In this document: positions 839 through 38,525 of the stretch, piece by piece
Layout: every line of letters starts with the position of its first letter
Position numbering within the stretch: the stretch's first letter is position 1
Assembly: GCA_031292215.1 (NCBI GenBank)
Contig: JARLHO010000080.1
Coordinates: forward strand, 1-41,163
DNA length: 41,163 bases
From: Syntrophobacteraceae bacterium
GTDB lineage: Bacteria > Desulfobacterota > Syntrophobacteria > Syntrophobacterales > Syntrophobacteraceae
Direction of reading: 5' to 3'
Program-made: the position numbers and the translations under genes
Notes under the pieces: generated by a model
The model's database searches: none
What the model saw: only the letters and a program-made list of their open reading frames with translations
Told to the model about the DNA's origin: nothing

Positions 839-1151
839 GCATTACCCACCGTCGGCCGTGGGTAACGGAGACTTCGGCGCACGGGCGCGGCCGCGCTCAA
901 AGCTAAAAACCAGTTTGGAGTTCATCGCCTCCTGATGGTATTATTTATCATTCGACAGCTATATTCGGCTCGAAGCGAACCGCCGATACAATCGATGAGG
1001 GATCGCGCCATTACAATCATGGTCGGGACTACATAAGGTTTTTCACAAGTTGAAAAATAATTCGGATAAAAAAACCGTTAAGCTCGTGAGGTGGGCCCCC
1101 CGGATTCTCGAATCCCCCCCCCGGGGTGGACCAATAAGCCGTTCCTCGGTC
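839..1151. other. Intergenic stretch without a recognisable gene
   Basis: No protein-like frame with a plausible start is seen. The stretch is partly AT-rich (930-1075) and ends in C- and G-runs with a small palindrome (about 1090-1130). It runs directly into the truncated 5' end of the next gene, so it may contain a deletion junction. Confidence 0.4.
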
Positions 1152-3533
1152 ATGAAGCCACCGGGGATTAGCGATGATGCGGTTGTCGTCATGGGTTGCG
1201 GGGACATAACGATGCGGAAGGGAGTCGATCTGTTCATTTCCGCGGCGTCGGCTCTAAAACACCTCTCGCCTTCACGCCGGTTCCGCTTCGTTTGGGTTGG
1301 AAAAGATACCGAATATCTCTACACACGCTACCTGGCCGAGCAGATCGAGCGTTGCGGGCTAACGGAAGCGGTGGAATTTATCGGCGAACCAGCCTCTTTT
1401 GATCGGGTCTGTGGATTGGCGGATATATTCTTTCTTAGCTCCCGGCTGGACCCGTTTCCAAAGGCAGCCATAAAGGCCATGCTAAATGGTCTGCCTGTTG
1501 TGTGTTTCGAAAATGGCTCGGCCACAGCCGAAATGCTCTCAAACCATGGCGATCTCCAAAAACTGGTTGCGCCCTATTTGGATGCCTATTCGGCAGCCGC
1601 AATAATCGATCTTTTGTGCACGGACACTTACTATCGCGCCGTTTCAAAAAGAGCTGTGCGCACTATGGCTCTTTCGGTCGATATCGACCGCTACTGCGAG
1701 CAGGTCGATTCGTTTACCAAAACCGTTTCGCTTCTCCCGGGGCGGCAGGAGCAGGATTTGGCTCCACGTGTTGGCGACAAGGGTTTTGTCGAGGGGCTTT
1801 GCCGGCGCGCGGGCGGGGAGGACAAGTCCGGCAATGGGCCGGCCGGGTGGCAAACACTGTACCGGCACTATGACCGCTCCTATCGGATATGGAAAAAGCA
1901 CCGGCAAACCGGCGCCGACAGGGAGCAAACGCTAAGGCTGATTGGCGAGCTTTGCGGTATTGGTTCTTTTTTTCTGCTCTATCCTCTCTACAAGTTGATA
2001 AAGCCCTGCATAAAGTTACAAAAAACATTATCTCGAAGATCTGTAAAGTCCCCCGGACGGGGCGCCAGGATTTACGATCCGTCAAAAAAGACTGTCTTGC
2101 TGGTTTCCCATGAGGCTTCGAAAACCGGGGCGCCCTTGATTGCATTCAACCTGCTCGAAAAATTCGCCTCGAAGTACAACGTCATCTCGGTGCTCCTTGG
2201 ACCCGGCAGCCTTGAGAGAGCTTTTAAGAGCTGCTCTGTTGCAACGCTTGGCCCCTTTAGCAACTCCGAGCGTTACTCCGCGGCCGTTCACGCCCCCATC
2301 TTTCGCCTCTGCCAACAGTTCTCGCCCTCCTTTGCCGTCGTAAACAGCCTCGAATCCAGGGAAGCGCTCGTTGCGCTAAGGAAGGCAGGGGTCCCATCCG
2401 TTCTGCTCGTTCATGAGTTTGCCTCTCTTTGGCAGGTGGATATGAAAAGAGTTGCCGCCGGCGCCTGCCAAATGGTCTTCCCCGCGCCCCTCGTTTGGCG
2501 CGATGCAGTGGGTATGTTCCCCCAAATCGCTTCTCGCCCGGTCAACATCATCCACCAGGGCCAGTGCAGAATTCCACTGGAATGGCTGCACGGCGAAACC
2601 TCCCGGGGCGAGGCAGAACACATAGCATCGCTTATGAGGCCGCTTGGGGCAAAGGATGACGCCGTTGTCGTCATGGGGTGCGGAACCATCGAAATGCGAA
2701 AAGGGGTCGATTTGTTCCTTGCCGCGGCAGACGCCCTCAAACGGCTCTCGCCGGCACTGCGGTTCCGCTTCGTTTGGGTCGGAAAAGAAATCGACCCGGT
2801 GTTTACACGATATCTGTCCGAACAGATCGAGCGTTGCGGTCTTACGGAGACGGTGAAATTTCTTGGAGAACTTAGCTCCGTGGATATGGCTTACCGCCTG
2901 GCGGATATCTTCTTCCTTAGCTCACGACTGGACCCGTTTCCAAACGTCGCCATCGAGGCAATGCTAAATGGTCTGCCCGTTGTCTGTTTCGAAAATGCTT
3001 CAGGTACCGCCGAAATGCTCTCGCGCCGCGACGATCTGAACAAACTGGTCGCGCCCCATATGGACGCCTATTCGGCAGCTCGGAAAATAGATCTTTTGTG
3101 TACGGACCATTGCTTTCGAGCCGCCGTAAAGACCGCTGTCCGCAACCTGGCGGTTTCCTTCGACAGGGACCGCTACTGCGATCAGATTGATTCCTTGGCC
3201 CAAAGGGCAACTCAAATCATGAGTCAGCAGCAAGAAGATGCGGCCACCATCACCCGCGATGAAACCTGTATGAGCGGCATGGACCGGCGCCTCAAGGGCC
3301 GAAAGGAAAAAGACGCGCTCATCCGGTCCTGGGTGTATGAGTGCGCCGGGTGCGAGGCGACTTCCTGCCCCTTCCCGGGCTTTGATCCCGAAATTTACCG
3401 CAAAGAACATCCCGAGCTAAACGAACCCCCTTTTGTCAATCCACTTGCCCATTTTCTCCGCAGCGGTCAACCACAGGGGCCGTGGTTGCTCACCCGGGAG
3501 CTCCATCGACAACCACGCTTTTCGCATTCTTGA
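1152..3533 (+). CDS. Tandem GT-B glycosyltransferase (GT4-like), 5'-truncated, with internal tail module
   Basis: About 793 residues from ATG 1152; a TTG at 1050 would add 34 unconvincing residues. Residues ~5-190 match residues ~510-690 closely (both contain DDAVVVMGCG, RKGVDLF, FFLSSRLDPFP and NGLPVVCFEN). This is the nucleotide-sugar-binding C-terminal half of a GT-B glycosyltransferase. Only the second copy has the matching acceptor half (from ~312, LLVSHEASKTGAP), so the first unit has lost its N-terminal domain and is probably not catalytic. Residues ~233-297, between the units, carry the LYPLYK...KP tail also found on the next two proteins. The C-terminus has FDPEIY...NPLAHFLRSG, a short motif recurrent in polysaccharide glycosyltransferases. 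A role in surface glycan assembly is inferred from family and neighbours; the sugar is unknown. No good Shine-Dalgarno precedes either start, consistent with a truncated gene. Confidence 0.75.
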   Translation: MKPPGISDDAVVVMGCGDITMRKGVDLFISAASALKHLSPSRRFRFVWVGKDTEYLYTRYLAEQIERCGLTEAVEFIGEPASFDRVCGLADIFFLSSRLDPFPKAAIKAMLNGLPVVCFENGSATAEMLSNHGDLQKLVAPYLDAYSAAAIIDLLCTDTYYRAVSKRAVRTMALSVDIDRYCEQVDSFTKTVSLLPGRQEQDLAPRVGDKGFVEGLCRRAGGEDKSGNGPAGWQTLYRHYDRSYRIWKKHRQTGADREQTLRLIGELCGIGSFFLLYPLYKLIKPCIKLQKTLSRRSVKSPGRGARIYDPSKKTVLLVSHEASKTGAPLIAFNLLEKFASKYNVISVLLGPGSLERAFKSCSVATLGPFSNSERYSAAVHAPIFRLCQQFSPSFAVVNSLESREALVALRKAGVPSVLLVHEFASLWQVDMKRVAAGACQMVFPAPLVWRDAVGMFPQIASRPVNIIHQGQCRIPLEWLHGETSRGEAEHIASLMRPLGAKDDAVVVMGCGTIEMRKGVDLFLAAADALKRLSPALRFRFVWVGKEIDPVFTRYLSEQIERCGLTETVKFLGELSSVDMAYRLADIFFLSSRLDPFPNVAIEAMLNGLPVVCFENASGTAEMLSRRDDLNKLVAPHMDAYSAARKIDLLCTDHCFRAAVKTAVRNLAVSFDRDRYCDQIDSLAQRATQIMSQQQEDAATITRDETCMSGMDRRLKGRKEKDALIRSWVYECAGCEATSCPFPGFDPEIYRKEHPELNEPPFVNPLAHFLRSGQPQGPWLLTRELHRQPRFSHS

Positions 3534-3665
3534 GCGGACCGCGATCATCGTGGATCAAACGGCCAGGAGAGGGCCATCCCGAGATTTGGGAAAAGCAGCG
3601 GAATCGGCGCCCCATCCCAAGGCAGCAGGAGGAACGAAAAAAACGGTGTCTGGCGAGGAGTGTTT

Positions 3666-5927
3666 GTGAAAATAAAAGGGCGCCTAAGGGGCGCGGTTTC
3701 TAAACTATTGCGCCGGCCTGCGCCCGCGGCGGCCCGGGGGGCGGATTCCTCTTCCGAGTGCTTTTCCAAACTCCTTCCACTGGCGCGGGTCGTCTCGTTT
3801 GACGTATTTGATACCGTACTGCTCCGAAAAACCAGATGTCCCACCGACGTCTTCTTATACATGGAAAGCGAGGCGCGAAATATTCTCGCCAATCCGGGGG
3901 CGCGGTTTCCCGAGCTTCGCATCCAGTCCGAGACCATTGCCAGACAGAGAGCTTTCACCCAACACGGCTACGATGACACAAACCTCGAAGAGATCTATTC
4001 TGTCCTACGGGAGCTGACGGGAATTGGCGATGACGCGTTGCGGGCTCTACTCGAGCTGGAACTGCGCTGCGAAGAACGGCTAATCTATGCAAACCCTTAT
4101 GCCGCAAGGCTCTGCAAGCTGGTCGAGGCACAAGGAAAGACCCTTGCTTTTACCTCGGACATGTACCTGCCTCGTTTCGCCGTAGCCCATTTGCTCGAAA
4201 CGAACGGGTTTTGCGCGCAAAACCTCCTGATTTCCTCCGAGACTCGGGTGACCAAGCATGGCGGCAAGCTCTTCGATCTGCTCGTAGGCAGATTCGGAGG
4301 CGACCCGGGAAAGATTTTGCACACCGGAGATAATGAATGGTCGGATTTCGAGCGAGCCCGGCAAAGAGGGCTTACGTCCCTGCACTGGCAGCCCCAACCC
4401 GAACAGCTCCCCTTTGTGGATCAAATCGCCTCTTGCGCGCCCGATTGGGACCGCGACCTTTCCTCCAGCATCTATGCCGGCCTGGCGCGAAAACGAAGGC
4501 TTAGCCATCCGGTCGTTGGGACCGGGGCCTCGGACTTTTGGAAAGCGATCGGATATGAGGTTATCGGCCCGCTATATTTATCATTTGTCTCCTGGACCAT
4601 AAAACAAGCCCAAGACCTTGATGTGGATAAACTTTTCTTCCTGGCTCGAGATGGCTATTACTTAATCAAGGTATTCGACATCCTTAAAGAGCGCTGGAAG
4701 TTCGCCATAAACGCAGATTACCTGTATGCTTCCCGTCGTCTACTAAATGTGCCAAGAATCACTTCGATCGATGAAGAGGCGCTCTCTTTTTTGACCGAAC
4801 CCAATCCCTGGATGTCGCTTGGCGACTTTTTGGAAAGAATTGGACTCGATCCGGCCCTCTATTGCGAGCGCCTCTGCGATTTCGGCTTTACTTCCCCGGA
4901 CCAGTTGCTCACCTCCGCGCAGGGTTTTGTATCCGAGAAAGTGCGCGAGAATACGCGCGCTTTGATAAAGAGCCTTGGCGGCGATATTTTGGCCCTCGCA
5001 GCCAGGGAACGATCGAGACTGTTGTCCTATTTTTCCGATATCTCTTTGACTCCGGGCAAGGCAGCCCTGGTAGACATCGGCTGGCAAGCCTCCTCGATCA
5101 GGTCGCTTCGTGACTTGTTAAATCTTAGTGGCAATGAGCCGGGCCTGCATGGGCTCTATTTTTCGACATGGCGATTTGCCGAAAGCGTCCTGCTCTCGGG
5201 TTGTCCCCTGCGGTCTTTTTACGTACACCTGGATCGTCCGAGACATCGAGCCCATCTGATTTGCGAAGGCGTTGAACTGCTGGAGGCCTTTTTTTGCGCC
5301 CCGCACCCCTCGGTTGTGGGGCTTAAGAAAAGCAACGGCCGCTGGCGCCCGCTCTATGGCGAAAAAGAGCTGGGTGACACGCAGCAGCGAAACTTGGACG
5401 TAGCCAAAGAGGCCGCGTTGGAATTCGTGGTCGAGGCGACGGATTTGGCGCGGGATTGCGATTTTGGCCAACCGCCGTTTGCCTACCTCGACACCGTGCT
5501 GGAAAGAATACTGGGCCATCCGTTGCCGCATGAAGCGCGCATCCTGGGGGAGCTTTCGCACCGGAACAGTTTTGGAGGCAGCGCCCTGCCGCGCCATATC
5601 GCGAAAGCGCCTGCGAAAGAAAAGCGAGAAAACGTCGCCACATTGCGCGAAGCCTACGAGCGCAGTTACTGGAAAACCGGGTTCCTGGCCCAGCTTACGG
5701 GAAAGGAAAAACGGCTTCTTAAAAGAGAGCAACGCGTCCGTTGGGATGCTTATGACAATGCCTACCACTTCTGGAAGGAGTATAAGAGAAAGCGGCTGAG
5801 TCGGCATGAAGCGGTAAAGATCATCGATGACCGGTATGGCCTGCGTTTATTCATTGCGCTGTACCCGCTCTATAAAATCGTAAAGCCTTTTAAAAAATTG
5901 ATGAAATTTTTTAAAAAAATGGCTTGA
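3666..5927 (+). CDS. HAD-superfamily protein of the COG5610 type with C-terminal tail module
   Basis: 753 residues from GTG 3666. GAGGAG at 3655-3660 lies five bases upstream; the GTG at 3660 overlaps that site and is rejected. Residues ~40-235 are a HAD domain: motif I FDVFDT (Asp46; the residue two positions on is Phe, not the Asp of classical phosphatases), motif II FTSDMYLP, and motif III/IV GDNEWSDFERA. The middle part (FFLARDGYY, YASRRLLNVP, VDIGWQASS) is typical of the long COG5610 proteins found in capsule and O-antigen clusters. Residues 692-753 are the AYDNAYHFW...LYPLYK...KPFKKL tail shared with neighbouring glycosyltransferases, ending in a very basic stretch. The likely role is a hydrolase or transfer step in surface polysaccharide synthesis, at the cytoplasmic face. 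The substrate cannot be read from sequence. Residues 1-690 are close to the second half of the fusion protein at 7328-10372. Confidence 0.8.
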   Translation: MKIKGRLRGAVSKLLRRPAPAAARGADSSSECFSKLLPLARVVSFDVFDTVLLRKTRCPTDVFLYMESEARNILANPGARFPELRIQSETIARQRAFTQHGYDDTNLEEIYSVLRELTGIGDDALRALLELELRCEERLIYANPYAARLCKLVEAQGKTLAFTSDMYLPRFAVAHLLETNGFCAQNLLISSETRVTKHGGKLFDLLVGRFGGDPGKILHTGDNEWSDFERARQRGLTSLHWQPQPEQLPFVDQIASCAPDWDRDLSSSIYAGLARKRRLSHPVVGTGASDFWKAIGYEVIGPLYLSFVSWTIKQAQDLDVDKLFFLARDGYYLIKVFDILKERWKFAINADYLYASRRLLNVPRITSIDEEALSFLTEPNPWMSLGDFLERIGLDPALYCERLCDFGFTSPDQLLTSAQGFVSEKVRENTRALIKSLGGDILALAARERSRLLSYFSDISLTPGKAALVDIGWQASSIRSLRDLLNLSGNEPGLHGLYFSTWRFAESVLLSGCPLRSFYVHLDRPRHRAHLICEGVELLEAFFCAPHPSVVGLKKSNGRWRPLYGEKELGDTQQRNLDVAKEAALEFVVEATDLARDCDFGQPPFAYLDTVLERILGHPLPHEARILGELSHRNSFGGSALPRHIAKAPAKEKRENVATLREAYERSYWKTGFLAQLTGKEKRLLKREQRVRWDAYDNAYHFWKEYKRKRLSRHEAVKIIDDRYGLRLFIALYPLYKIVKPFKKLMKFFKKMA

Positions 5928-5993
5928 ATCAAATGATGCGGGAAAGGGATTGAATGAAGCACCAAAGCCGGTTATCATGGCCATTCATCCTAA

Positions 5994-6167
5994 TTGGGCG
6001 CAAAGCCCCGGGCGCTTTACACGCAAACATTTTACGAGACCCTGTACCTAATCCGGAGCCAAACCGATCGGATCAACCTTGAACGCTACCCCGGCAAAAA
6101 AAACCATCTCACCAAGACCGAGGAGTTCAAACAGTCTATAACCCTTGTGGACGTGGGGGGAATTTAA
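5994..6167 (+). other. Short protein-like open frame, possible gene remnant
   Basis: A 57-codon frame is open from TTG 5994 to TAA 6165-6167, just before the GT2 gene. Its translation looks protein-like (ALYTQTFYETLYLIR, then TEEFKQSITLVDVGG), but there is no clear ribosome site and I cannot name a family. It may be the 3' end of a gene lost when this cluster rearranged, or it may be chance. Confidence 0.25.
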
Positions 6168-6169
6168 GA

Positions 6170-7231
6170 GTGTCTGCCGCCATCTCGCGAATTTGCGTGG
6201 TCACAAGGACAAAAGATCGGCCTCTTACGTTGAAGCGAGCTATTGAGTCCGTACTAAAACAGACCTTTGAGGATTGGTTGCACATCATTGTAAACGACGG
6301 TGGAAACGCGGCTGCTTTGGACTCCGTCGTCTCGCCCTGCCTTAGCCGTTATCGCGGACGTCTAAGGATCATCGATAACGAGGTATCTTCGGGTATGCAA
6401 AATGCCTCGAACTGCGCCATTAGACAGACAGACAGCGAATATATCGCCATCCATGACGATGACGACTCCTGGGCGGAAACGTTTCTATCCCAATGTTGCC
6501 GATATCTCGATTCCACCGGTCCTGCGGGCATCATTCAAGGGGTTGTCACTCAATCGGTCTGGGTCTTTGAACAGATCGATAAACACGGCAATATCGTGGA
6601 GCTAAGGCGGGAAGATTATTTTCCCTTCAAAAACGTCAACCTGTTTGAACTGGCGGGCAGAAATATTTTTCCTCCCATCGCTTTTGTCTATAGAAGACGG
6701 GTCCATGACCATATCGGCCTATTCGATCAACAGTTTAACTATCTTGGAGACTGGGACTTTAACATCAGATTCGCCAGCAAATTCGACATCGGAGTCATCG
6801 ATCGGCCATTGGCGTTTTATCACTGGCGCCATGGGGTATCCGGGTCCGGTTATGGCAACACGGTGACCGATGAAGTAGAAGAGCATCGAAAACTTGCCAA
6901 TATGTTACGCAATCACTACCTGCGCCTGGATTTGGAAAGAGGCGGGGTCGGATTGGGTTTCCTTATCAATATATCCGATAAATTGGCCCAACTGGCAGAA
7001 AGGGAGGAAAAAGAGCTTATCAAGAGATATAGTGTAATCGATTGGAATGCATATGACAACGCCTATCATTTCTGGAGAGAGTACAAAAAGGGGCGCATTG
7101 TTAAACACAAGGCATTCAAGATAATCGATGAAATGTATGGGCTTACTCGTTTCCTTACGCTGTACCCCCTCTACAAAGTACTAAAGCCTTTTAGAAAACT
7201 GATAAGATTTTTGAAAAAAAAGACGGCTTAA
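6170..7231 (+). CDS. Family 2 glycosyltransferase with C-terminal tail module
   Basis: 353 residues from GTG 6170 (MSAAISRICVVTRTKDRP). The GT-A fold signature is clear: the N-terminal VVTRTKDRPLTLKRAIESVL, then VNDGG, then a metal-binding acidic cluster HDDDDSW near residue 100, and an acceptor-side GDWDFNIRF. It should transfer a sugar from a nucleotide donor to a growing surface glycan on the cytoplasmic side; donor and acceptor are unknown. Residues 291-353 are the same tail as on the HAD protein upstream (AYDNAYHFW, KIID, LYPLYK, KPFRKL, basic end). Residues 1-~280 are about three-quarters identical by eye to the N-terminus of the next gene, showing a recent duplication. The upstream SD (GGGGGGAA) is weak. 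Confidence 0.85.
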   Translation: MSAAISRICVVTRTKDRPLTLKRAIESVLKQTFEDWLHIIVNDGGNAAALDSVVSPCLSRYRGRLRIIDNEVSSGMQNASNCAIRQTDSEYIAIHDDDDSWAETFLSQCCRYLDSTGPAGIIQGVVTQSVWVFEQIDKHGNIVELRREDYFPFKNVNLFELAGRNIFPPIAFVYRRRVHDHIGLFDQQFNYLGDWDFNIRFASKFDIGVIDRPLAFYHWRHGVSGSGYGNTVTDEVEEHRKLANMLRNHYLRLDLERGGVGLGFLINISDKLAQLAEREEKELIKRYSVIDWNAYDNAYHFWREYKKGRIVKHKAFKIIDEMYGLTRFLTLYPLYKVLKPFRKLIRFLKKKTA

Positions 7232-7327
7232 GTCCCTTTCCAGCATATGGGCAAAACGACGGGACGGCGTTCGGGAAACTATCGGGAAGGTGTATTGGAT
7301 TACTCTTGCAAGACATGGGAGGAAGAA

Positions 7328-10300
7328 ATGTCTGCGGCCATCTCACGAGTCTGCGTGGTCACCAGGACAAAAGATCGCCCCCTGATGGTAAAGCGAGCCA
7401 TGGAGTCCGTACTCAACCAGACCTTTGAGCACTGGGGGCACATCATTGTAAATGACGGTGGGGACGCGCTGACTTTGGGGTCTGTGGTATCCCCGTATCT
7501 GGGCCGCTACCGCGGGCGGCTTAAGATTATCCACAACGAGACTTCCCCGGGCATGCAAAACGGCTCCAATTGCGCCATTTCCAGTACGGACAGCGAATAT
7601 ATAGCGATCCATGACGATGACGACTCCTGGGCCGAAACGTTTTTGGCGGAATCTGTCGGATACCTCGATTCCCTTGGCCCCGCCGATACTACTCAGGGAG
7701 TCGCTACCCAATCGGTCCGGGTCTTTGAGGAGATCGATAAATACGGCGCCATAGTAGAGCTCGACCGACAAGACTATTTCCCCTTCAAGGAAATCGGCCT
7801 CTTTGACCTTGCCGGCAAAAATGTCTTCCCCCCTATCGCCTTTGTCTACCGAAGAAAGGTCCACGACCATATCGGTTTGTTCGATCAACAATTTAACTAT
7901 CTGGGAGACTGGGACTTTAACATCAGATTTTTGAGCAAATTCGACATCGGAGTAATCGATCGGAAACTGGCTTTTTATCACTGGCGCCACAAGGGAGCGG
8001 GATCAAATTACGGCAACACGGTGACCGACGAAGTCGAGGAGCACCAAAGACTAGCCCTTAAGTTACGCAATCACTACCTGCGTCAGGATTTGGAAAAAGG
8101 CAGGGTTGGACTGGGTTTTGTGATGAATCTATCCGAAAAGTCCTCCCGGCAGCTATCCATGCTCCGGGATTTAGAGCGGCAAACAGATACCGCGTTTAAA
8201 AAACTCAACTATCTCGAGACGATGGCCGGCCACTTCGCAAGAATAACCGGGGACCTCAGGAGATTTTACTCCCTTAAAGTTTCTTTCTATAAGGCAAGAA
8301 AAAGAGTAAAGGAACGCGTCCTGGGCGCTTTTTCCCATCCCGGGCGACACCCGGCAGGGCAGGCAGGGTCGCCGCGGCCCGCTTTAGACCAAAAGCTCCT
8401 CGACAAGCTGCTTTTGTCCGCACAGGTCGTATCCTTCGATGTGTTTGACACCGTACTTTTGCGAAAAACCAAATGCCCGATCGATGTCTTTTTGTACATG
8501 CAAGGCCAGGCCCGCGCGATTTTGGGAAACCCCAGGGCACAGTTTCCCGAGCTTCGCGTCAATGCCGAGAGGATCTCCCGCCAAAGAGCCTTGGAGCAAC
8601 ACGGCTACGGCGACACAAACCTCGAAGAGATCTACTGCGTCCTGCGGGAGCTGACGGGGGTAGACGACAGCGCGTTACACGCTCTTAAGGAACTCGAAAT
8701 TTGCTCGGAAAAAAGGCTTATCTACCCGAACCCGGAGGCGGTCAAGCTGTGCGACATGGCCCTTTCCCTGGGCAAAACCGTCACCTTTACCTCGGACATG
8801 TATCTGCCCGAGTCCCTTGTCGCCCAGTTGCTGGAAGAAAACGGGTTTTGCGCCGAAAACCTGCTGATTTCCTCAAAGACGCGGGTGACAAAGCATAGCG
8901 GCGAGCTCTTCGACCTGGTCGTAGACAAATTCGGAGGAGATCCGGGAAAGATTTTGCACATAGGCGATAATGAATTGTCCGATTTCGAGCGCGCCAGGAC
9001 CAGGGGACTCCAGTCGTTTCATTTTCGGCCTCAACCCGGGCAACTCCCCTTTGTGGACCAAATCGCCTCGTATGCCGGCAACTGGGTTTGCGACCTGCCC
9101 TCCAGCATCTATACGGGTTTAGCGCGAAAGCGAAGGCTTAGCCACCCGGTGGAAGACACCGCCTCGGTTTCGGATTTATGGAAATCCATCGGCTACGAAG
9201 TGGTGGGACCCCTTTATTTGTCGTTTGTCGCCTGGGTTGTGCGCGAAGCAAAGAAATTGGATATTGAAAAACTCTTTTTCCTGGCAAGGGACGGGTACTA
9301 CCCGATCAAAGTATTCGATATCGTAAAAGAGCGTTGGAATCTGGCAATGGATGCGCGCTACACGTATGCTTCCCGTCGTTTGCTAAATGTACCCGGGATA
9401 CGAGCGATCGATGCGGATGCCCTTGCGTTTTTGACCGAGCCCAATCCCTGCATGATGCTAAAGGACTTCTTTCAACGGATCGGACTCGATCCGGCCCCCT
9501 ATTCCAACCGCTTCCACGACTTCGGGTTCACCTCCTCGGACCAGTTGCTAACTACCCCGGGCGGCGCGTTCGTATCCCCCCTGGCCCGCGATAACATGAG
9601 GAAACTGATCCAAAACGTTTCCGGCGACATTTTGGCCAAAGCAGCCGACGAACGCTCGAGGCTCCTGTCGTATTTGGCCGAGGCCGGCATCGCATCGGGT
9701 AGCGCGGCCATCGTCGATATCGGCTGGCAAGCTTCATCGATCAAGTCCTTTCGGGACCTGTTAGGTCTCAATGGGTGCAAGCACGGCCTGTACGGGCTCT
9801 ATTTTTCGACATGGCGATTCGCCCTGGGACCAATGAACTCGGGTTGCCCGGTGCAATCCTTTTACGTGCACCTGGATAAACCCGACCATCGCGCCGATCT
9901 GATTCGAGAAGGCGTCGAAGTACTGGAGGCTTTTTTTGGCGCTCCGCATCCCTCAGTGGTGGGGCTTGAGAAAAGCGAGGGGGGCTTTCGCCCGCTCTAT
10001 GGCGAAAAAGAACTAGACGATACGCAGCAGCAATACTTGGAGCTGGCCAGGGAGGCGGCCCTCGAATTTGTCCTCGATGCCTGCGAACTGATAACGGAGC
10101 TGGATTCGACCACGCCGGCCCATGGCTATCTAGACACGGTCCTCGAAAGAATACTGTGCCACCCTCGCCCCCGGGAAGCGCACGCCCTGGGGCAGATTTC
10201 CCATCGCAATACCTTTGGTGGATACGGACCGCTGCGCTATATTGCCAAAGTGCCCTCGGGTAAGGACCGCAAAAAGCCCCGGGCTTTGCGCGAAGCTTAT

Positions 10301-10372
10301 GAGCGGTGCTTCTGGAAAAAGGGGTTTTTGGCCCAGCTTACCGAAAAAGAAAAAAAGCTCCCGGGTCTATGA
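7328..10372 (+). CDS. GT2 glycosyltransferase fused to HAD/COG5610 protein
   Basis: 1014 residues from ATG 7328. GGAGGAA sits five to seven bases upstream, and the protein then begins MSAAISRV exactly like its paralogue; an ATG at 7247 adds 27 unsupported residues. Residues 1-~280 are a GT2 domain (TRTKDRP, HDDDDSW, GDWDFNIRF) homologous to the gene at 6170. A basic linker follows (~285-355), then a HAD domain with FDVFDT at Asp371, FTSDMYLP and GDNELSDFERA, and the rest of the COG5610 region, homologous to the gene at 3666. The two neighbouring single-domain genes are thus repeated here as one polypeptide, in the opposite order. The protein stops at AQLTEKEKKLPGL, just where the upstream HAD protein continues into its tail, so the shared tail is missing. 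Function: probable bifunctional enzyme of surface glycan synthesis. Confidence 0.85.
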   Translation: MSAAISRVCVVTRTKDRPLMVKRAMESVLNQTFEHWGHIIVNDGGDALTLGSVVSPYLGRYRGRLKIIHNETSPGMQNGSNCAISSTDSEYIAIHDDDDSWAETFLAESVGYLDSLGPADTTQGVATQSVRVFEEIDKYGAIVELDRQDYFPFKEIGLFDLAGKNVFPPIAFVYRRKVHDHIGLFDQQFNYLGDWDFNIRFLSKFDIGVIDRKLAFYHWRHKGAGSNYGNTVTDEVEEHQRLALKLRNHYLRQDLEKGRVGLGFVMNLSEKSSRQLSMLRDLERQTDTAFKKLNYLETMAGHFARITGDLRRFYSLKVSFYKARKRVKERVLGAFSHPGRHPAGQAGSPRPALDQKLLDKLLLSAQVVSFDVFDTVLLRKTKCPIDVFLYMQGQARAILGNPRAQFPELRVNAERISRQRALEQHGYGDTNLEEIYCVLRELTGVDDSALHALKELEICSEKRLIYPNPEAVKLCDMALSLGKTVTFTSDMYLPESLVAQLLEENGFCAENLLISSKTRVTKHSGELFDLVVDKFGGDPGKILHIGDNELSDFERARTRGLQSFHFRPQPGQLPFVDQIASYAGNWVCDLPSSIYTGLARKRRLSHPVEDTASVSDLWKSIGYEVVGPLYLSFVAWVVREAKKLDIEKLFFLARDGYYPIKVFDIVKERWNLAMDARYTYASRRLLNVPGIRAIDADALAFLTEPNPCMMLKDFFQRIGLDPAPYSNRFHDFGFTSSDQLLTTPGGAFVSPLARDNMRKLIQNVSGDILAKAADERSRLLSYLAEAGIASGSAAIVDIGWQASSIKSFRDLLGLNGCKHGLYGLYFSTWRFALGPMNSGCPVQSFYVHLDKPDHRADLIREGVEVLEAFFGAPHPSVVGLEKSEGGFRPLYGEKELDDTQQQYLELAREAALEFVLDACELITELDSTTPAHGYLDTVLERILCHPRPREAHALGQISHRNTFGGYGPLRYIAKVPSGKDRKKPRALREAYERCFWKKGFLAQLTEKEKKLPGL

Positions 10373-10407
10373 CCGCTTAAACGATACAAAACATTTTGGA
10401 TTCAATC

Positions 10408-11406
10408 ATGGGCCGTAGTAATTCAAACCAACCAGGCAATTTGTTATTGTATTCCTTGATATCTTTTCGAGACATCATTGAACCAATCCTCACACTCTCC
10501 CGGCCGGGTTCGGTTTGCGAAATTGGAGTCGAAAAAGGTTTATTTACCGACTTTCTCATCAAATATTGTACCGCTTCAAACTGCAGGTATACTGGTATAG
10601 ATCCTTCCATCGAAAAAGATGTGATGGAAAAATTACCTGGTGAACACGTAGTTTTTTTAAAGGATCGATCGATCGACGCTCTTAGGACGCTGGAGCGCCA
10701 TGATATCTATTTCATTGACGGAGATCACAACTACTATACGGTAACAAATGAATTGCTCTTGATCCTGAAACACCCGGATCGCGCTCCGCTCATTTTTCTC
10801 CATGATGTAGGATGGCCATGGGGCAGAAGGGATCAATATTGCTCACCCGAAAACATCCCGACTCGCTACAGGCGCCCCAGCTCCTCGGAACGCGGCGTGG
10901 CGCCTGGCGAGGAAAATCTTCAGCCCGAAGCGGGGTTCCGCGGCGCCGAAAGCGATTACGGCTACGCCGCGGCAGTTAAGGAAGGCGGACCGTGTAACGG
11001 CGTGTTGACGGCCGTAGAGGATGCGATCGAAGAAACGGAAAGCGATTGCAAGCTAATTGTAGTACCCGCGATTTTCGGTCTTGGGATACTGTATTTTCCT
11101 CATGCATGCGGCCCGGAGCTTTTGCAATATCTGAGACGATTATCGGACAGCATGTCTTTACTTGGCAATCTGATGCAACAGATGGAAACAAATCGCATCG
11201 ATTTATTTCTACAATACCTTAAACATAATAAGCAGCTCGTAGCTAAACATGACATATATAAATCCACTGAATCGGCTTATAATGATTTACTAAATCAATA
11301 TCATGACCTGTTGCAGAAGTACCAGGAACTGCACGGTGCTTATAAGGATTTATTTTCTGCCTATGAAGATCTTAGAGCCTATTGCGTTCACCTGGAAGAT
11401 CGTTAA
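10408..11406 (+). CDS. Class I SAM-dependent methyltransferase-like protein with heptad-repeat C-terminus
   Basis: 332 residues from ATG 10408; a TTG at 10396 is an alternative and neither has a good SD. The N-terminal ~220 residues fit a Rossmann methyltransferase of the Methyltransf_24 kind: CEIGVEKGLFTDFL (SAM-binding loop), YTGIDPS, and YFIDGDHNYYTV, the usual post-motif acidic turn. A GC-rich insertion (about residues 150-195) separates LHDVGWPWGRRD from the last strand. Residues 291-325 are five consecutive seven-residue units of the form Y-x-(D/E)-L-x-x-x, a regular amphipathic helix or coiled coil suited to oligomerisation or docking. The gene is visibly more AT-rich at both ends than its neighbours, which suggests separate acquisition. 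A sugar or glycan methylation role is inferred from context only. Confidence 0.7.
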   Translation: MGRSNSNQPGNLLLYSLISFRDIIEPILTLSRPGSVCEIGVEKGLFTDFLIKYCTASNCRYTGIDPSIEKDVMEKLPGEHVVFLKDRSIDALRTLERHDIYFIDGDHNYYTVTNELLLILKHPDRAPLIFLHDVGWPWGRRDQYCSPENIPTRYRRPSSSERGVAPGEENLQPEAGFRGAESDYGYAAAVKEGGPCNGVLTAVEDAIEETESDCKLIVVPAIFGLGILYFPHACGPELLQYLRRLSDSMSLLGNLMQQMETNRIDLFLQYLKHNKQLVAKHDIYKSTESAYNDLLNQYHDLLQKYQELHGAYKDLFSAYEDLRAYCVHLEDR

Positions 11407-11680: not shown

Positions 11681-13450
11681 ATGAAAAGATTTCTTAGCGC
11701 AATACTTGTCAAATTAGGCATTGATAAAGACCACTTGCGGCAAATGGTCGAGCTGATCGAACCGCACTGGAAAAAGCTTGCCCTTTCGGTCTTATGCATG
11801 GTGGGAGTGGGTTGGGCCGTAGCCGGCACGGCATATTTGATTCGACCGGTCCTGGACCAGATATTTGTTAAAAAAGACGATGCCATGCTCAAATTACTGC
11901 CCCTTGCCGTCCTGGTGCTCGTTACCGTCAAGGGAATGTGTCTTTGGGGCAACTCCTACCTCACGGCCTTTGTCGGCCAATCGGTTGTGGCCGAAATCCG
12001 CAGGAAACTCCACGATCATATACAGATGCTCCCCCTTGCTTTTTTCGACAATAACAAGATCGGCGACCTCATGTCCCGGATGTTAAACGACGTGGATTTT
12101 CTCCAAAACACTGCAACCGACACCCTTACCGGGCTTGTGCGGGACGGTTTTAGCGCCATCGGCCTTCTCTATGTCGTTTTCTATCAAAATTGGCGCCTTG
12201 CCCTGATTGCGCTCGTCCTTCTCCCGGCCGGGTTCTATCCTCTTTTCAAGATAACGAGTGTGATTCGGGAACTTGCCAGGAAGGGGCTTGCCTATATGGC
12301 CGAAATCACCATTCGCCTCCACGAGTCCCTTGGAAGCATTCGAATCGTCAAGGCATTCGGGATGGAGGACTACGAAAAAAAGCGTTTCCAGGAAGTAAAC
12401 GATCTTAACCTCAAATTTTCGATCAAGATAGCTTCGATCACGGCGCTTTCTTCCCCGATCATGGAGTTTCTGGGCGGCTTGGTTATCGTTTTCACCGTAT
12501 GGTACGGCGGATGGAGCGTCATACACGGAAAGACGACACCCGGGGCCTTCTTCTCGTTTATAGCCGCCCTGCTCATGCTCTATGAGCCGGTAAAGAGAAT
12601 AAACAAGACGATCGGGATGCTGCCGGTGGGTTTTATGGCTGCCTCGCGTGTTTTTGACATAATGAAGGCGCCCCGGGAGGTCACAGACCATGAGGGCGCC
12701 CTGGAGCCGGCGTCAATAAGCCGCACCATCGAGTTTAGAAAAGTGTGCTTTTCCTACGGCGGCGACCGGGTGCTAAACGATATCAACTTTACGGCTCACG
12801 TGGGCGAGGTGATCGCGCTGGTGGGAATGAGCGGGGCGGGAAAGACAACGCTCGTAAATCTCATCCCGCGCTTCTACGACGTGACCCAAGGGGCGATATT
12901 TATCGACGGGGTGGATATCCGCGAGTTCAAGTTGTCTGCTCTGCGCTCGCTTATCGGCATGGTCACCCAGCAATCCATTCTCTTTAACGACACTGTCCGA
13001 AACAATATCGCCTACGGCGACATAGCCAAGGGCGAAGAGCAAATAATCGCCGCGGCCAAGGCGGCAAACGCTTATGATTTCATTATGAAATTGCCTCTGG
13101 GGTTAGACACTCACATAGGAGATCAGGGCATCCGGCTCTCCGGCGGGGAGAGGCAGCGACTCTGTATCGCCCGTGCGCTTTTAAAAAACGCCCCGGTCCT
13201 TATCCTCGACGAGGCCACATCCTCTCTGGACAGCGGATCGGAAAGCGAGGTCCAAAGCGCTCTCGATAACCTCATGGTCGGCAGAACGACCTTTGTCATC
13301 GCCCATCGGCTTTCCACCATACGCAATGCCGACCGCATCTTTGCGCTAACCGATGGAATGATCCTTGAGGAAGGCCGCCATGACGAGCTTTTGAGAAGGG
13401 GAGGCGAGTACAGCCGCCTCTACGAACTCCAGTTTGCACATCTTCAGTAG
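11681..13450 (+). CDS. msbA: MsbA-type lipid A / lipid-linked glycan ABC exporter
   Basis: 589 residues, the usual length of a fused TMD-NBD half-transporter. The N-terminal ~320 residues hold about six membrane helices (for example LALSVLCMVGVGWAVAGTAYL, FLGGLVIVFTVWYGGWSVI). The ATPase domain has Walker A GMSGAGKTT near residue 382, a Q-loop (VTQQSILF), the signature LSGGERQ near 486, Walker B VLILDEATS near 506, and H-loop VIAHRLST. As a homodimer it would flip lipid A core or a lipid-linked saccharide from the inner to the outer leaflet of the inner membrane. Its place at the end of a glycosyltransferase cluster suggests it exports that cluster's product. A dedicated glycolipid exporter of the same family is an alternative. 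The 274 bp before it carry no gene; SD is weak (ACGAG). Confidence 0.85.
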   Translation: MKRFLSAILVKLGIDKDHLRQMVELIEPHWKKLALSVLCMVGVGWAVAGTAYLIRPVLDQIFVKKDDAMLKLLPLAVLVLVTVKGMCLWGNSYLTAFVGQSVVAEIRRKLHDHIQMLPLAFFDNNKIGDLMSRMLNDVDFLQNTATDTLTGLVRDGFSAIGLLYVVFYQNWRLALIALVLLPAGFYPLFKITSVIRELARKGLAYMAEITIRLHESLGSIRIVKAFGMEDYEKKRFQEVNDLNLKFSIKIASITALSSPIMEFLGGLVIVFTVWYGGWSVIHGKTTPGAFFSFIAALLMLYEPVKRINKTIGMLPVGFMAASRVFDIMKAPREVTDHEGALEPASISRTIEFRKVCFSYGGDRVLNDINFTAHVGEVIALVGMSGAGKTTLVNLIPRFYDVTQGAIFIDGVDIREFKLSALRSLIGMVTQQSILFNDTVRNNIAYGDIAKGEEQIIAAAKAANAYDFIMKLPLGLDTHIGDQGIRLSGGERQRLCIARALLKNAPVLILDEATSSLDSGSESEVQSALDNLMVGRTTFVIAHRLSTIRNADRIFALTDGMILEEGRHDELLRRGGEYSRLYELQFAHLQ

Positions 13451-13696: not shown

Positions 13697-15412
13697 TCAA
13701 TAATACAACCAATCCCCCCCGCCGGTTAAATCCACGAAACTCCTCGCCGATTGTCCGGCGCCCTGCGCCGGCACTGAATACCAGAGCCAATGGCTGTTAC
13801 TCGCCCTGTAGAGATAGGGATAAACCGATGCGCTTGTCCACCAGAAGTCGCCGTTTTTGCCCATCGCCGGGTCGTAAAACCAGAGGCTATCCGTTGAGCT
13901 CCCATATACATAGAGCCAGCCAAGCGTTTCGTGGTAAATCCAGCCGGTATTGGGTATCGGTGCGAACTCCCCGAACCAGTTGAGCCAAAACCACCCGCTG
14001 CCGAGGTTATAGTTGTTTTGCCACAAGGATCGGAGCTTGTTGGCAACCACGATTTTATAGTTGCTGCCCGAACCGGTTGCCCCGGCCCCTGTCATGACTG
14101 TTTTGCTCGCATCCATTACCAGGTTGACATTGTTGGTACAAGTGCTCCCGGAGGGCTGATTCCGGGCGCAGGTGACCGCCCCGGTCGAGGAATCGATGGC
14201 CAGGATTCCGCTGCCTGCGCTGGTTGTACCGTCGCTGTTATTTTGGGTGTTCGCATAGGAGCCGTCGCTGCTTATTTGAAAAACCATCCTCCTCCACGTG
14301 CCGTCGGTGCGCAGTTGAGCTACACCCCAATTTCCGGCAAGGTCGCCCAGGGAATAGGCGCCGCTATTTCTGGTCAGAATGTGGAGTTGGATAGCGCTGC
14401 TGGAATAGCTTGTAAATCCGGGGGCGACGGTCATGCCGGAGTCCAAAAACCAATCGCCGACACCGCCGCTCTGTCCGCAACCGGACGTGCAGTTAAAGCT
14501 CATCAGCCCGTTTGATGCCAGGGACAAAGCGCCTGAAATTTGACCCGATTTCGTGGGGTCGCTAAGTGTAACGCCGGCAACCATGTTCGTGCCGGTTACC
14601 GTGATGCTGTCCTGCTCCCAGGAGTCGCCGCTATTGTTTGTCACTATCTTCAGCCCCTGGCCGTTCCATGGGCCGGGCAGGTCGGCATTCGAATACCCCG
14701 ACCCCTCTTTGACGCCGACATTTAGATAGGATGTACCGCTGCCGCCGTTTATCGTTGCCGTGCACGCCATGACCGAAGCGGTCTCATTTGCGTAGCACAG
14801 GAAATGTTGCAGGTTATCGGATGGAGAGCAGGTGGACCGAATCCCGGAGGGGAAAGGCCATGCGGAACAGGCGAACGAAGGGTAGTTGCTGCCATAGCTG
14901 TCGCTGCAGCTCATGGCGAATGTTCCGTCGGCTTGAAAGGTGTCCGTGCATTTCTGTCCAAGCGGGGATTCCGCGCCCGTAGTCATGGCGCTAAAATTCC
15001 ACGTGCCGGCATAGGCGGAGGTAGGCGTAGCGGAGGGCGTAACGCTGTTTGACCGGCTGGACTCCACGCTGGTCCCGCCTAGAGAGTTTGTCGCCTTTAC
15101 CGTAAACTCATAGGCCTGGCCGTTGGCTAACCCTGTCACCACGTGATCTTGCGTAGTCGAACCTGCGTTGGTGTCATTGGCGGCGGCGTAGACCGAAGTG
15201 GCGCCGTTGACGTTTACGGTGTAAGCTGTGACGGTGCAGCCGGTGATGGAGCTTCCATTGTCCCCGGCCGGGACCAGGAAGTGCACTGCCGCGCTCTGGT
15301 TTCCAGGCGCCGCCTCAACGTTTGCCGGAGGGCTTTGAGCCGCTAACGCGCGGGTTGCAAGCGCGACGCAGCCCACCATGAGGCATAGGGAAAAAAACCG
15401 TCTGTGTTTCAT
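13697..15412 (-). CDS. Exported fibronectin type III protein with W-rich C-terminal module
   Basis: 571 residues. ATG at 15412 is preceded by a strong SD (GAGGAGG). Residues 1-~25 are a signal peptide (FFSLCLMVGCVALATRALAA). Residues ~28-125 are a fibronectin type III domain (PPANVEAAPGNQSAAVHFLVPA, VTGLANGQAYEFTVKATNSLG). The central ~330 residues are Ser/Thr/Gly-rich beta-type sequence with paired cysteines and no family I recognise. Residues ~463-571 are the Trp/Tyr-rich module (NLGSGW, GWIYHETLGWLY, LWFYDP, FWWTSASVYPYLYRAS, FVDLTGG). The same module ends the propeller protein at 18780 and the sedolisin at 38526. The protein probably acts outside the inner membrane, at the cell surface or secreted. 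It is convergent with msbA and monocistronic. Confidence 0.75.
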   Translation of the reverse strand: MKHRRFFSLCLMVGCVALATRALAAQSPPANVEAAPGNQSAAVHFLVPAGDNGSSITGCTVTAYTVNVNGATSVYAAANDTNAGSTTQDHVVTGLANGQAYEFTVKATNSLGGTSVESSRSNSVTPSATPTSAYAGTWNFSAMTTGAESPLGQKCTDTFQADGTFAMSCSDSYGSNYPSFACSAWPFPSGIRSTCSPSDNLQHFLCYANETASVMACTATINGGSGTSYLNVGVKEGSGYSNADLPGPWNGQGLKIVTNNSGDSWEQDSITVTGTNMVAGVTLSDPTKSGQISGALSLASNGLMSFNCTSGCGQSGGVGDWFLDSGMTVAPGFTSYSSSAIQLHILTRNSGAYSLGDLAGNWGVAQLRTDGTWRRMVFQISSDGSYANTQNNSDGTTSAGSGILAIDSSTGAVTCARNQPSGSTCTNNVNLVMDASKTVMTGAGATGSGSNYKIVVANKLRSLWQNNYNLGSGWFWLNWFGEFAPIPNTGWIYHETLGWLYVYGSSTDSLWFYDPAMGKNGDFWWTSASVYPYLYRASNSHWLWYSVPAQGAGQSARSFVDLTGGGDWLYY

Positions 15413-18333: not shown

Positions 18334-18779
18334 GGCAGGCGATGTTTGTACCGGTGTAATCGGCAAAACCCGAGGGACCTCGTTCCAGTCCCGGGAAGAG
18401 TTGGCTGAGCTTAGCGCGAAGAGTCCTTACCCCGCTTTTGCAAGCATGGGGCAGACCGCCCTCCCGATCCCCGAAACAATGAAGCGTGCTCCAAACGGGC
18501 GCAACCGGTTTCTGTGGAAAAACCCTACGGAATATTCGCAAATCTTCCGATTAACTTAACGCGCGGGCTTTCCCGTTACAATCGGGGTAGCGCCAATGCG
18601 TCCAACCCGCTCGAATATATTCGCTGCTTTGGAGGGCGAAGGCCCCCCGCCTCGTATTCTGCCCGAAGGCATGCAAGGAGGCTGGAAAGGGGAGCGTGTT
18701 TCGGAAAACCTATGGCGTCGATAAGCTGCGTCTGCACGGGCGGAGCAAAAATAACGACCGGCTACGAGAAGGAGAAGGC
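18334..18779. other. Intergenic region before the SBBP protein
   Basis: 446 bases with no protein-like frame and no RNA that I recognise. It contains several short GC-rich inverted segments and, at its 3' end, the ribosome site AAGGAG (18769-18774) of the next gene. An in-frame GTG at 18696 exists but has no SD, and the translation before 18780 is not signal-peptide-like. Confidence 0.45.
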
Positions 18780-21356
18780 GTGAGAAAGCGCATCCTGGCG
18801 ACACTACTTTATTTTTCCATCCCCGTACTTACAACCCTTTTTGTCTTCTTTGCCCCGAACAGTTCTCCGGCGGCCCTGGCCGGCGGCGGGAGGGCAATGG
18901 TCCATGGGCGACTGCCCCTTTATTTCATCGAAAACAGGGGCCAGGTGAACTCCCGGGCTAAATTTTATGAAACAGGCCCGGGACATACGACTTTTTTCAC
19001 CCGCAAAGGGGTTGTCCTGAGTCTTTGCCGGGGGGACGGCAAAGTCAACCGGAAAGGACAACTTGGGGCAAAACCGAGGGGTTTCCCCACCAGATCGCCC
19101 GCTGGAAGCGTAGCCGGCCACCAGTCGTCCTATCTATCGATCGGAATGGTCGGCATGAATAAAGACGTGCGCATACTTGCCGAGGATGCGCAGCCCGGCA
19201 AAGTCAACTACTTCAGAGGAAGCGACCCGCGCAAATGGCTAACCGCCATTCCAACCTATGGAGCGGTCCTCTATAAGAACGCCTATCCCGGAATCGATGT
19301 AAAATTTTACGGCAACAATCGACGACTCGAATACGACATCATTGTAGCGCCGGGGGCGGACCCCTCCAAAGTGAGGTTTACATATTCGGGGGCAAAAGAT
19401 GTGCATGTCACAGCGACAGGAGATCTCGCCATCGGGCTTGGCGGCGGCAGGCTGGTCTTTAAAAAGCCCTCCTTATATCAGAAGCTAAATGGCGAGAAGG
19501 TGTTAAGACAGGGCAAATTCGTCGTCCGGCGCGAAAAACTCGCGGCGGGCGCCTTACATGGCTCCACAGTCGCCCCGACGGGCGAAAAACTTTGGGCCTT
19601 CACCTGCAGTTTCAAGGTTTGCGCCTACGACCGAAAGCTTCCCCTGGTCATCGATCCGGTGATGCTCTACTCCACCTTCCTTGGAGGCTCGGCAAACGAC
19701 GAAGCCTACGGCATCGCCGTCGACAGCTCCGGCAACGCATACATGACCGGCGTTACGAACTCCATCGATTTTCCTACCCAAAATGTCGTCCAGTCGGGCT
19801 ATGCGGGCGGCACGAGCTACGGGGATGCTTTTGTGACGGAAATCGCAGCCGGTGGCCAGAGCCTGGTCTATTCCACCTACCTTGGCGGAACCGGAGACGA
19901 CATCGGTTACAGCATCGCCGTGGACGGCGCCGGCAACGCCTACGCTACCGGCTGGACAAATTCAAGCGATTTTCCAATAACCCCGAACGACATTCAGCCC
20001 TTCAACGGAGGAGGCTGGGACGCTTTCGTTACCGAAATCGCAGCCGGTGGCAAGACCCTGATCTACTCCACCTACCTTGGCGGCGCCGGGGATGACTACG
20101 GAACCCACATCGCCGTGGACGGCTCAGGCAACGCCTACGTTGCGGGAAGGACCTATTCAACCGATTTTCCCCACCCGAATGGTTTCCAATCGAGCCTTGC
20201 GGGAGAAGAAAACGCCTTTGTCGCCAAAATCGAATCCGGTGGAAAGAGTCTTCTCTACTCCACTTACCTCGGGGGAAACGGCTATGATGAGGCTTGGGCC
20301 ATCGCGGTGGACGGCTCAGGCAACGCCTATGTCGCGGGCCTTACGACCTCAACCAATTTTCCAACGGTAAAGCCTTTCCAGTCCGCATTCGGGGGCGGCA
20401 CTACCAACGGCACCGGGGACGCTTTTGTTGCCGAAATCGCAGCCGATGGCCAGAGTCTTGTCTATTCCACCTACCTTGGCGGCTCCGGAGATGACGCAGC
20501 TTACGGCATCGCCCTGGACAGCTCCCGCAACGTATATGTTACAGGCTCGACACAATCGAGCAATTTCCCACTCTCAAATGCCCTCCAGCCAAACTTTAAC
20601 GCAGCCACGAGCTACGGGGACGCATTTGTTGCGGAAATAGCGGCAAACGGCCAGAGCCTTACCTACTCCACTTACCTAGGAGGAACCGGAGATAACTCGG
20701 GCAACTCCATCGCAGTCGATGGCTCGGGCAACGCTTTCATTGCGGGAGCGACCAGCTCAGTGGATTTTCCGGTCGCAAACGCTCTCCAGTCCGCCAACCG
20801 GGGCGGCTACGACGCGTTTGTAGCCGAAATCACAGCCGGCGGCGCCAGCCTGGCTAAATCCACCTATCTAGGCGGAAGCGGCAATGACGCCGGATACGGC
20901 ATCGCCCTGGACAACTGGGACAACGCCTACGTTACAGGCACAACGGAGTCAAAAGACTTTCCCACCGCCAACGCTTATCAGCCTTCATTTGCGGGCGGGG
21001 GCGACGATGCCTTTTTGGCCGTAATCGCCGGACTGTGGGGGAACGCCACAAACCTCGGGAGCGGCTGGATGTCCCTTGGCTGGTTCGGCCGCTTCTACAC
21101 GAATGATTCTCCCTGGATCTACCACGAGAATCTGGGCTGGCTCCTTGCTTTCGGGACCTCGACCGACAACATCTGGTTCTACGACCCGTTGACGGGCAAT
21201 AACGGCGACTTCTGGTGGACAAGCGCCTCGGTTTATCCCTATCTCTACAGGGCGAGCAACGGCCATTGGTACTGGTATCTGGTCCCTGCGCAGGGAGCCC
21301 CGACAACCCCGCGGTGGTTTGTGGATTTGACCGATGGGCAATGGGTGAGTTATTGA
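18780..21356 (+). CDS. Exported SBBP-repeat beta-propeller protein with W-rich C-terminal module
   Basis: 858 residues from GTG 18780, chosen because AAGGAG ends five bases upstream and the protein then begins with a signal peptide (RKRILATLLYFSIPVLTTLF...PAALA). Residues ~40-300 are the N-terminal domain usual in SBBP proteins (FIENRGQVN, VNYFRGSDPRKWLT, YPGIDVKFYG, LEYDIIVAPGADPSKVRF). Seven SBBP repeats follow, each opening with YST(Y/F)LGG-x-x-x-D and containing IA(V/L)D-x-x-x-N-x-(Y/F) and (D/N)FP; the seventh has KST. They would form a beta-propeller or part of one. Residues ~752-858 are the Trp-rich module shared with the proteins at 13697 and 38526 (LGSGW, WIYHENLGWL, WFYDP, FWWTSASVYPYLYRAS, RWFVDLT). 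Probably surface-located or secreted; ligand unknown. Confidence 0.8.
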   Translation: MRKRILATLLYFSIPVLTTLFVFFAPNSSPAALAGGGRAMVHGRLPLYFIENRGQVNSRAKFYETGPGHTTFFTRKGVVLSLCRGDGKVNRKGQLGAKPRGFPTRSPAGSVAGHQSSYLSIGMVGMNKDVRILAEDAQPGKVNYFRGSDPRKWLTAIPTYGAVLYKNAYPGIDVKFYGNNRRLEYDIIVAPGADPSKVRFTYSGAKDVHVTATGDLAIGLGGGRLVFKKPSLYQKLNGEKVLRQGKFVVRREKLAAGALHGSTVAPTGEKLWAFTCSFKVCAYDRKLPLVIDPVMLYSTFLGGSANDEAYGIAVDSSGNAYMTGVTNSIDFPTQNVVQSGYAGGTSYGDAFVTEIAAGGQSLVYSTYLGGTGDDIGYSIAVDGAGNAYATGWTNSSDFPITPNDIQPFNGGGWDAFVTEIAAGGKTLIYSTYLGGAGDDYGTHIAVDGSGNAYVAGRTYSTDFPHPNGFQSSLAGEENAFVAKIESGGKSLLYSTYLGGNGYDEAWAIAVDGSGNAYVAGLTTSTNFPTVKPFQSAFGGGTTNGTGDAFVAEIAADGQSLVYSTYLGGSGDDAAYGIALDSSRNVYVTGSTQSSNFPLSNALQPNFNAATSYGDAFVAEIAANGQSLTYSTYLGGTGDNSGNSIAVDGSGNAFIAGATSSVDFPVANALQSANRGGYDAFVAEITAGGASLAKSTYLGGSGNDAGYGIALDNWDNAYVTGTTESKDFPTANAYQPSFAGGGDDAFLAVIAGLWGNATNLGSGWMSLGWFGRFYTNDSPWIYHENLGWLLAFGTSTDNIWFYDPLTGNNGDFWWTSASVYPYLYRASNGHWYWYLVPAQGAPTTPRWFVDLTDGQWVSY

Positions 21357-38413: not shown

Positions 38414-38525
38414 TTATAATGGGTTCGATTATCGATCGCCTTTTGCGCCTCTTTAGGCGCGTTCTTTGCACCAACTCTTGTCTCGACGATACCGAAACTT
38501 TGCACCAACCCACGGAGCCCGGACA

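Follow-up and report, generated by a model that had tools for sequence, protein, structure and literature searches.

A basic helical tail recurs on different glycan-pathway enzymes within one genus of the Syntrophobacteraceae and may act as an assembly tag at the inner membrane

Genes and tail copies in the window

The window, i.e., the whole stretch of 41,163 nucleotides from a Syntrophobacteraceae bacterium analysed here, carries a run of glycan genes near its start. Genes were called mechanically as ORFs and their starts are uncertain. This holds for the GT4 'double' protein (1050-3533, +), for which the coding start is a TTG and the open frame begins upstream. It consists of an N-truncated GT4 half, the tail and a full GT4, with Pfam matches (PF13692/PF00534) in two stretches. 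The identical architecture, likewise N-truncated, was found in another genome (G010, L063:2189-4579). The first half is probably not catalytic, since it is missing the N-terminal Rossmann domain and, within the DPFPNVAIEAM stretch, carries Lys at the position of the second half's Glu. The C-terminus of this protein (3380-3533) bears a FDPEIYRKEHPELN...PLAHFLRSGQ motif, which we take to be of a kind recurring at the ends of glycan enzymes.

The double protein is followed by a HAD phosphatase and phosphoribosyltransferase-like protein with a tail (3660-5927, +), a spacer without a clear gene (5928-6169), which may hold remnants of a deleted part, and a GT2 enzyme of type GT2-B with a tail (6170-7231, +; PF00535, E 5e-19). 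Further downstream lie a tail-less GT2-HAD/phosphoribosyltransferase fusion (7247-10372, +), which matches residues 2-274 of the GT2 enzyme and residues 4-686 of the HAD protein and ends there; a Methyltransf_24 protein (10396-11406, +; PF13578, E 6e-12) with a C-terminus rich in heptads, as judged by eye, and no tail; and an MsbA-like ABC exporter (11681-13450, +; PF00664 and PF00005), a recurrent neighbour of tail genes. A second common C-terminal module, of about 95 aromatic-rich residues (LGSGW...WIYHE.LGWL...WFYD...WWTS...YPYLYRA), was noticed on three different window proteins, all apparently secreted (13697-15412, -; 18696-21356, +; 38466-40676, +) and also at L063:7072-8853 and L065:7065-8459; it looks like a surface-anchoring or sorting end.

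The original prediction held that three different enzymes share a tail, one diverged copy lying between the halves of the double glycosyltransferase, and this was borne out. A recurring tail of about 65 residues was found in frame at the expected positions: between the two GT4 halves (1848-2048, +; E 1.7e-27), at the C-terminus of the HAD/phosphoribosyltransferase protein (5727-5924, +; E 1.3e-29) and at the C-terminus of the GT2 enzyme (7031-7228, +; E 1.0e-29). The profile was built from 19 rows that include these three copies, and profile members match their own profile by construction, so the independent support comes from a single-sequence search, in which the GT4 copy as sole query matched the other two window copies at 4e-10 and 5e-9, and from the later finds in other families. 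The residue numbers given earlier for the HAD tail (692-753) were too low by two, as DNA 5739-5924 encodes residues 694-755 of the 3660-5927 ORF. A fourth full copy forms the C-terminus of a different GT2, of type GT2-A, encoded on a further contig of this genome (C61:69515-69715). Beside that GT2-A gene lies a decayed tail fragment (GRTRFVLGYPLYKLCKPL; C61:70594-70662), perhaps the remnant of a tandem copy. In a control of 172 proteins from related loci, the tail accounted for 176 of the 180 directed pairs with only their C-terminus in common, and its sharing is thus unlike that of ordinary C-termini at these loci. Together with the E-values, this control rules out plain chance or ordinary C-termini as the source of the likeness.

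Identity of the HAD protein

The description of 3660-5927 as a HAD protein was correct in that a HAD phosphatase is present (PF00702 fell just below the cut-off), but it is not a plain HAD protein, since its two modules match Bcs3 and 7shg. In phmmer searches, residues 40-473 (P0001) aligned to residues 379-820 of Bcs3 (E 7e-23), the Haemophilus influenzae type b capsule polymerase, over its CrpP and CriT modules (PMC10299916, PMC11127046), and the protein also aligned to the ribofuranosyltransferase 7shg (E 7e-18); residues 384-992 of P0004 aligned to residues 26-630 of 7shg. The catalytic parts of both 3660-5927 and 7247-10372 align with HAD and phosphoribosyltransferase modules. From these alignments, 3660-5927 is a HAD phosphatase module followed by a CriT/gPRT module of the ribofuranosyltransferase type, and by homology it would transfer ribofuranose in a PRPP-dependent manner.

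Fold, charge and conservation of the tail

In AlphaFold2 models based on seven sequences, the isolated tail (copy 2) formed helices at residues 8-22, 28-38, 41-46 and 48-67 (mean pLDDT 82.6), and in a model of the full GT2 enzyme the tail alone was confident (pLDDT 85-95 over residues 291-350) and the rest too poor to reveal how the tail packs on the enzyme. The prediction is thus of a helical module, about 65 residues long, that folds autonomously. The module is not an already catalogued domain. No Pfam family was matched by more than one of the 19 tail members (best E 0.034), NCBIfam and PHROGs gave no match over the tail, and no relative was found among PDB sequences. In the fold libraries the best Foldseek E was 5.3, and Z values of up to 3.5 on 19 chains in VIA are unremarkable for helices.

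That the tail is basic with an amphipathic last helix, as had been proposed, was supported: net charge was +7 to +15 in all 20 copies, and in 18 of them the hydrophobic moment of the Lys/Arg-rich last helix was higher than in at least 97% of shuffled sequences. Purifying selection acts on the tail (pN/pS 0.21-0.40) with much the same strength as on the catalytic parts (0.26-0.34). Overall identity among the copies is about 30%, and Y14, W17, F43 and Y50 are invariant across 22 rows.

Host proteins and distribution

Seven host types were found in the genus, all of them glycan-pathway proteins: GT2-A, which also bears the tail beyond the genus; GT2-B and the HAD/phosphoribosyltransferase protein, both in the window; the GT4 double (window and L063); a GT-like protein without a Pfam match (L061, L066); Methyltransf_24 proteins of other genus members (L062, L064, L065), in which heptad-rich sequence precedes the tail and the order is methyltransferase-coiled coil-tail; and a class I methyltransferase (L062). 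The earlier statement that the tail sits on unrelated catalytic parts therefore extends to one homologous module on seven host types. The positions are C-terminal or inter-domain, the tail lying between domains in four of the 20 full-frame copies (the window GT4 double, L063, L065 and L069) and at or near the C-terminus in the others. One protein, L065:1958-5383, combines a methyltransferase, 14-residue heptad repeats, the tail, a GT4 and a GT2, and its domain order resembles that of ORF6 of Klebsiella pneumoniae O7.

The loci bearing the tail are glycan loci, containing glycosyltransferases, methyltransferases, epimerases, a sulfotransferase, and GT9-like and MsbA-like genes, and within the genomes searched the tail has so far been seen only in such loci. 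Homologues of the MsbA-like exporter are present in 6 or 7 of the 15 tail loci of the genus.

By profile search, the tail was detected in 7 of the 11 genomes of the genus, with up to five copies each, and in none of 15 other genomes of the family. Absences, including those in the other four genomes of the genus, are soft since most of the genomes are fragmented and probably MAGs. Among 395 genomes from the phylum, the tail was found in three further families (G369, G160 and G232), and a class-wide search added one more occurrence (G470). Beyond the genus it was thus sporadic within the phylum and confined to the GT2-A subfamily; in G369 it is followed by a fused methyltransferase domain. The range was assessed within this phylum, other phyla being covered by a narrow motif scan of genome_contigs. 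GT2 proteins of rhizobial, roseobacter and Bacteroidota plasmids, which aligned along most of GT2-A, showed no significant tail. Weak matches in G036 (L047) and G093 (L051, in a ferritin-like frame) were judged to be chance. A viral origin or spread of the tail was rejected, as the scan of viral_contigs yielded no confirmed relative.

Origin of the tail and fission of a GT2-HAD gene

Sampled GT2-A relatives at 55-57% identity end in the tail following the GT-A core, a relative at 53% identity (L096) has a diverged tail, and GT2 relatives at 40% identity or less end differently, without a tail. Read most simply, the tail appears to belong to GT2-A as its usual C-terminal appendage and to have become attached to other enzymes inside the genus; the tail tree is too poorly resolved to give the direction of transfer. 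The possibility raised at the outset, that the tail is simply the end of a known glycosyltransferase fold, is thus correct as to a glycosyltransferase origin, but the appendage lies outside the GT-A core and is found in no library.

The HAD and GT2 genes of the window share a stretch as originally described, but it starts earlier than was thought, with DNA identity from about 5686 and 6984, so that the last codons of HAD-proper (5686-5726, +) are also present in the GT2 gene at about 6984-7030. This common DNA (69% identity) starts 242 and 248 nt before the gene ends. Its start precedes the tail by some 14-18 codons and falls in sequence that belongs to HAD-proper in the tail-less relatives; in G010, too, it falls inside HAD-proper. 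Both split GT2/HAD pairs (window and G010) carry the tail on both genes. The GT2-HAD fusions of four genomes (window 7247-10372, G001, G009 and G010), on the other hand, lack it at both junctions, each of them stopping near HAD residue 688. Moreover, the leader and first codons of the split HAD gene of G010 match those of the GT2 gene of the window (score 55; best of 2000 shuffles 26). The common 5' and 3' ends of the split genes fit a single fission, in which a GT2-HAD-tail gene was duplicated and then underwent complementary internal deletions.

Since the split forms group together in trees (HAD 100/99, GT2 83/77), the association of tail and fission represents one event only, and the common ends mean that the tails on both partners may have been inherited from a tailed ancestor, not selected for re-association. 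It is therefore no more than suggestive that the tail replaces the covalent link of the fused GT2-HAD protein. Recent local duplication, named in the original prediction as a case that would refute it, is the best explanation for the HAD/GT2 pair but does not account for the five other host types or the other genomes.

Possible function of the tail

The simplest explanation for a selected, basic and amphipathic module common to enzymes of a single kind of pathway is a localisation and assembly tag, for which the C-terminal region of WbdD and the helix bundle of Bcs3 are precedents. We consider it somewhat better than an even chance that the tail is a common tag docking the enzymes of one pathway at the inner membrane. 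It would have begun as the C-terminal appendage of a single GT2 subfamily and, in one genus, have become attached to a further six types of glycan-pathway protein. With its last helix, Lys/Arg-rich and amphipathic, it would rest on the inner membrane from the cytoplasmic side, at the site of growth of the lipid-linked acceptor, and would concentrate the enzymes there; the first three helices could possibly make tail-tail contacts or bind one partner. We infer membrane binding, a partner and co-localisation. Some observations count against this reading: several copies have a last helix with a Wimley-White sum that is close to zero or unfavourable, the Tyr, Trp, Phe, Pro and Lys positions are conserved more strictly than a bare amphipathic helix would require, and no tail was found in four of the 11 genomes of the genus, a soft absence in MAGs. 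A tentative further proposal is that the tail is a portable assembly domain, holding a multi-enzyme glycan machine together by tail-tail or tail-membrane contacts and dispensable when activities are fused.

The same residue-specific conservation (Y14, W17, F43 and Y50) would suit pure protein docking, with no role for the membrane, in which tails associate with one another or with a single scaffold, for instance the MsbA-like exporter or a coiled-coil methyltransferase. The compact predicted fold, the tail-less fused pairs and the MsbA-like gene in 6 or 7 of the 15 loci are in line with it. However, the basic amphipathic end in every copy suits a membrane better, and there appears to be no constant partner, as no MsbA-like homologue was seen near the tailed GT2-A genes of other families in the stretches read. 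We regard docking of this kind as rather unlikely.

The paralogue-rich loci and the common 5' leader and 3' end of the HAD and GT2-B genes, which fit duplication and complementary deletions, could also mean that a C-terminal piece of GT2 was spread passively by duplication or recombination, with no shared function. This is improbable given that the tail is under purifying selection like the catalytic parts, has kept invariant residues at about 30% overall identity, and has been kept on seven kinds of host, also where it lies between domains. Least probable, and much to be doubted, is a role in binding the glycan or glycolipid as it grows, like that proposed for the SH3b domain of Bcs3. All hosts could meet the same acceptor and the aromatics (Y, W) are invariant, but the fold is small and helical, no likeness to carbohydrate-binding domains was detected, and the hosts probably act at different steps.

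The gathering of soluble-looking glycan enzymes at the membrane is known for few systems, mostly through one scaffold protein. If the preferred reading, a tag docking enzymes at the inner membrane, is true, the presence of one transferable tag on enzymes of seven types would predict which of them work together. Such a tag would be a simple handle that can be deleted or swapped, and it could mark uncharacterised pathway members by sequence.

Comparison with known systems

Like the C-terminal helices of GT2 glycosyltransferases, the tail is C-terminal on one GT2 subfamily; GT2 proteins further removed from it (40% identity or less) have different ends, and the appendage is named in no library. 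The catalytic parts of 3660-5927 and 7247-10372 resemble CrpP/CriT, PRP/gPRT and 7shg, but no tail was matched in those chains, and the tail is a feature of 3660-5927. Bcs3 resembles 3660-5927 in having C-terminal amphipathic helices together with HAD phosphatase and PRPP-dependent ribofuranosyltransferase modules. A role in membrane association and/or protein contacts was suggested for its amphipathic helix bundle, CT-HB (PMC10299916), which, unlike the tail, comes after an SH3b domain. The tail profile gave no match at E 10 or less to the PDB chains of Bcs3, which may omit the bundle.

In WbdD of the Escherichia coli O9a and K. pneumoniae O3 O-antigen systems, the C-terminal region following the coiled coil provides a membrane helix and recruits the polymerase (PMC11231755, PMC3482155). 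Methyltransferase, coiled coil and tail occur here in the same order, an analogy of position only, and in the L065 methyltransferase-coiled coil-tail-GT4-GT2 protein the tail stands at the place of the WbdD membrane helix and of the site that recruits the polymerase (PMC11231755). However, WbdD is one scaffold that recruits others, whereas here one module is carried by many enzymes.
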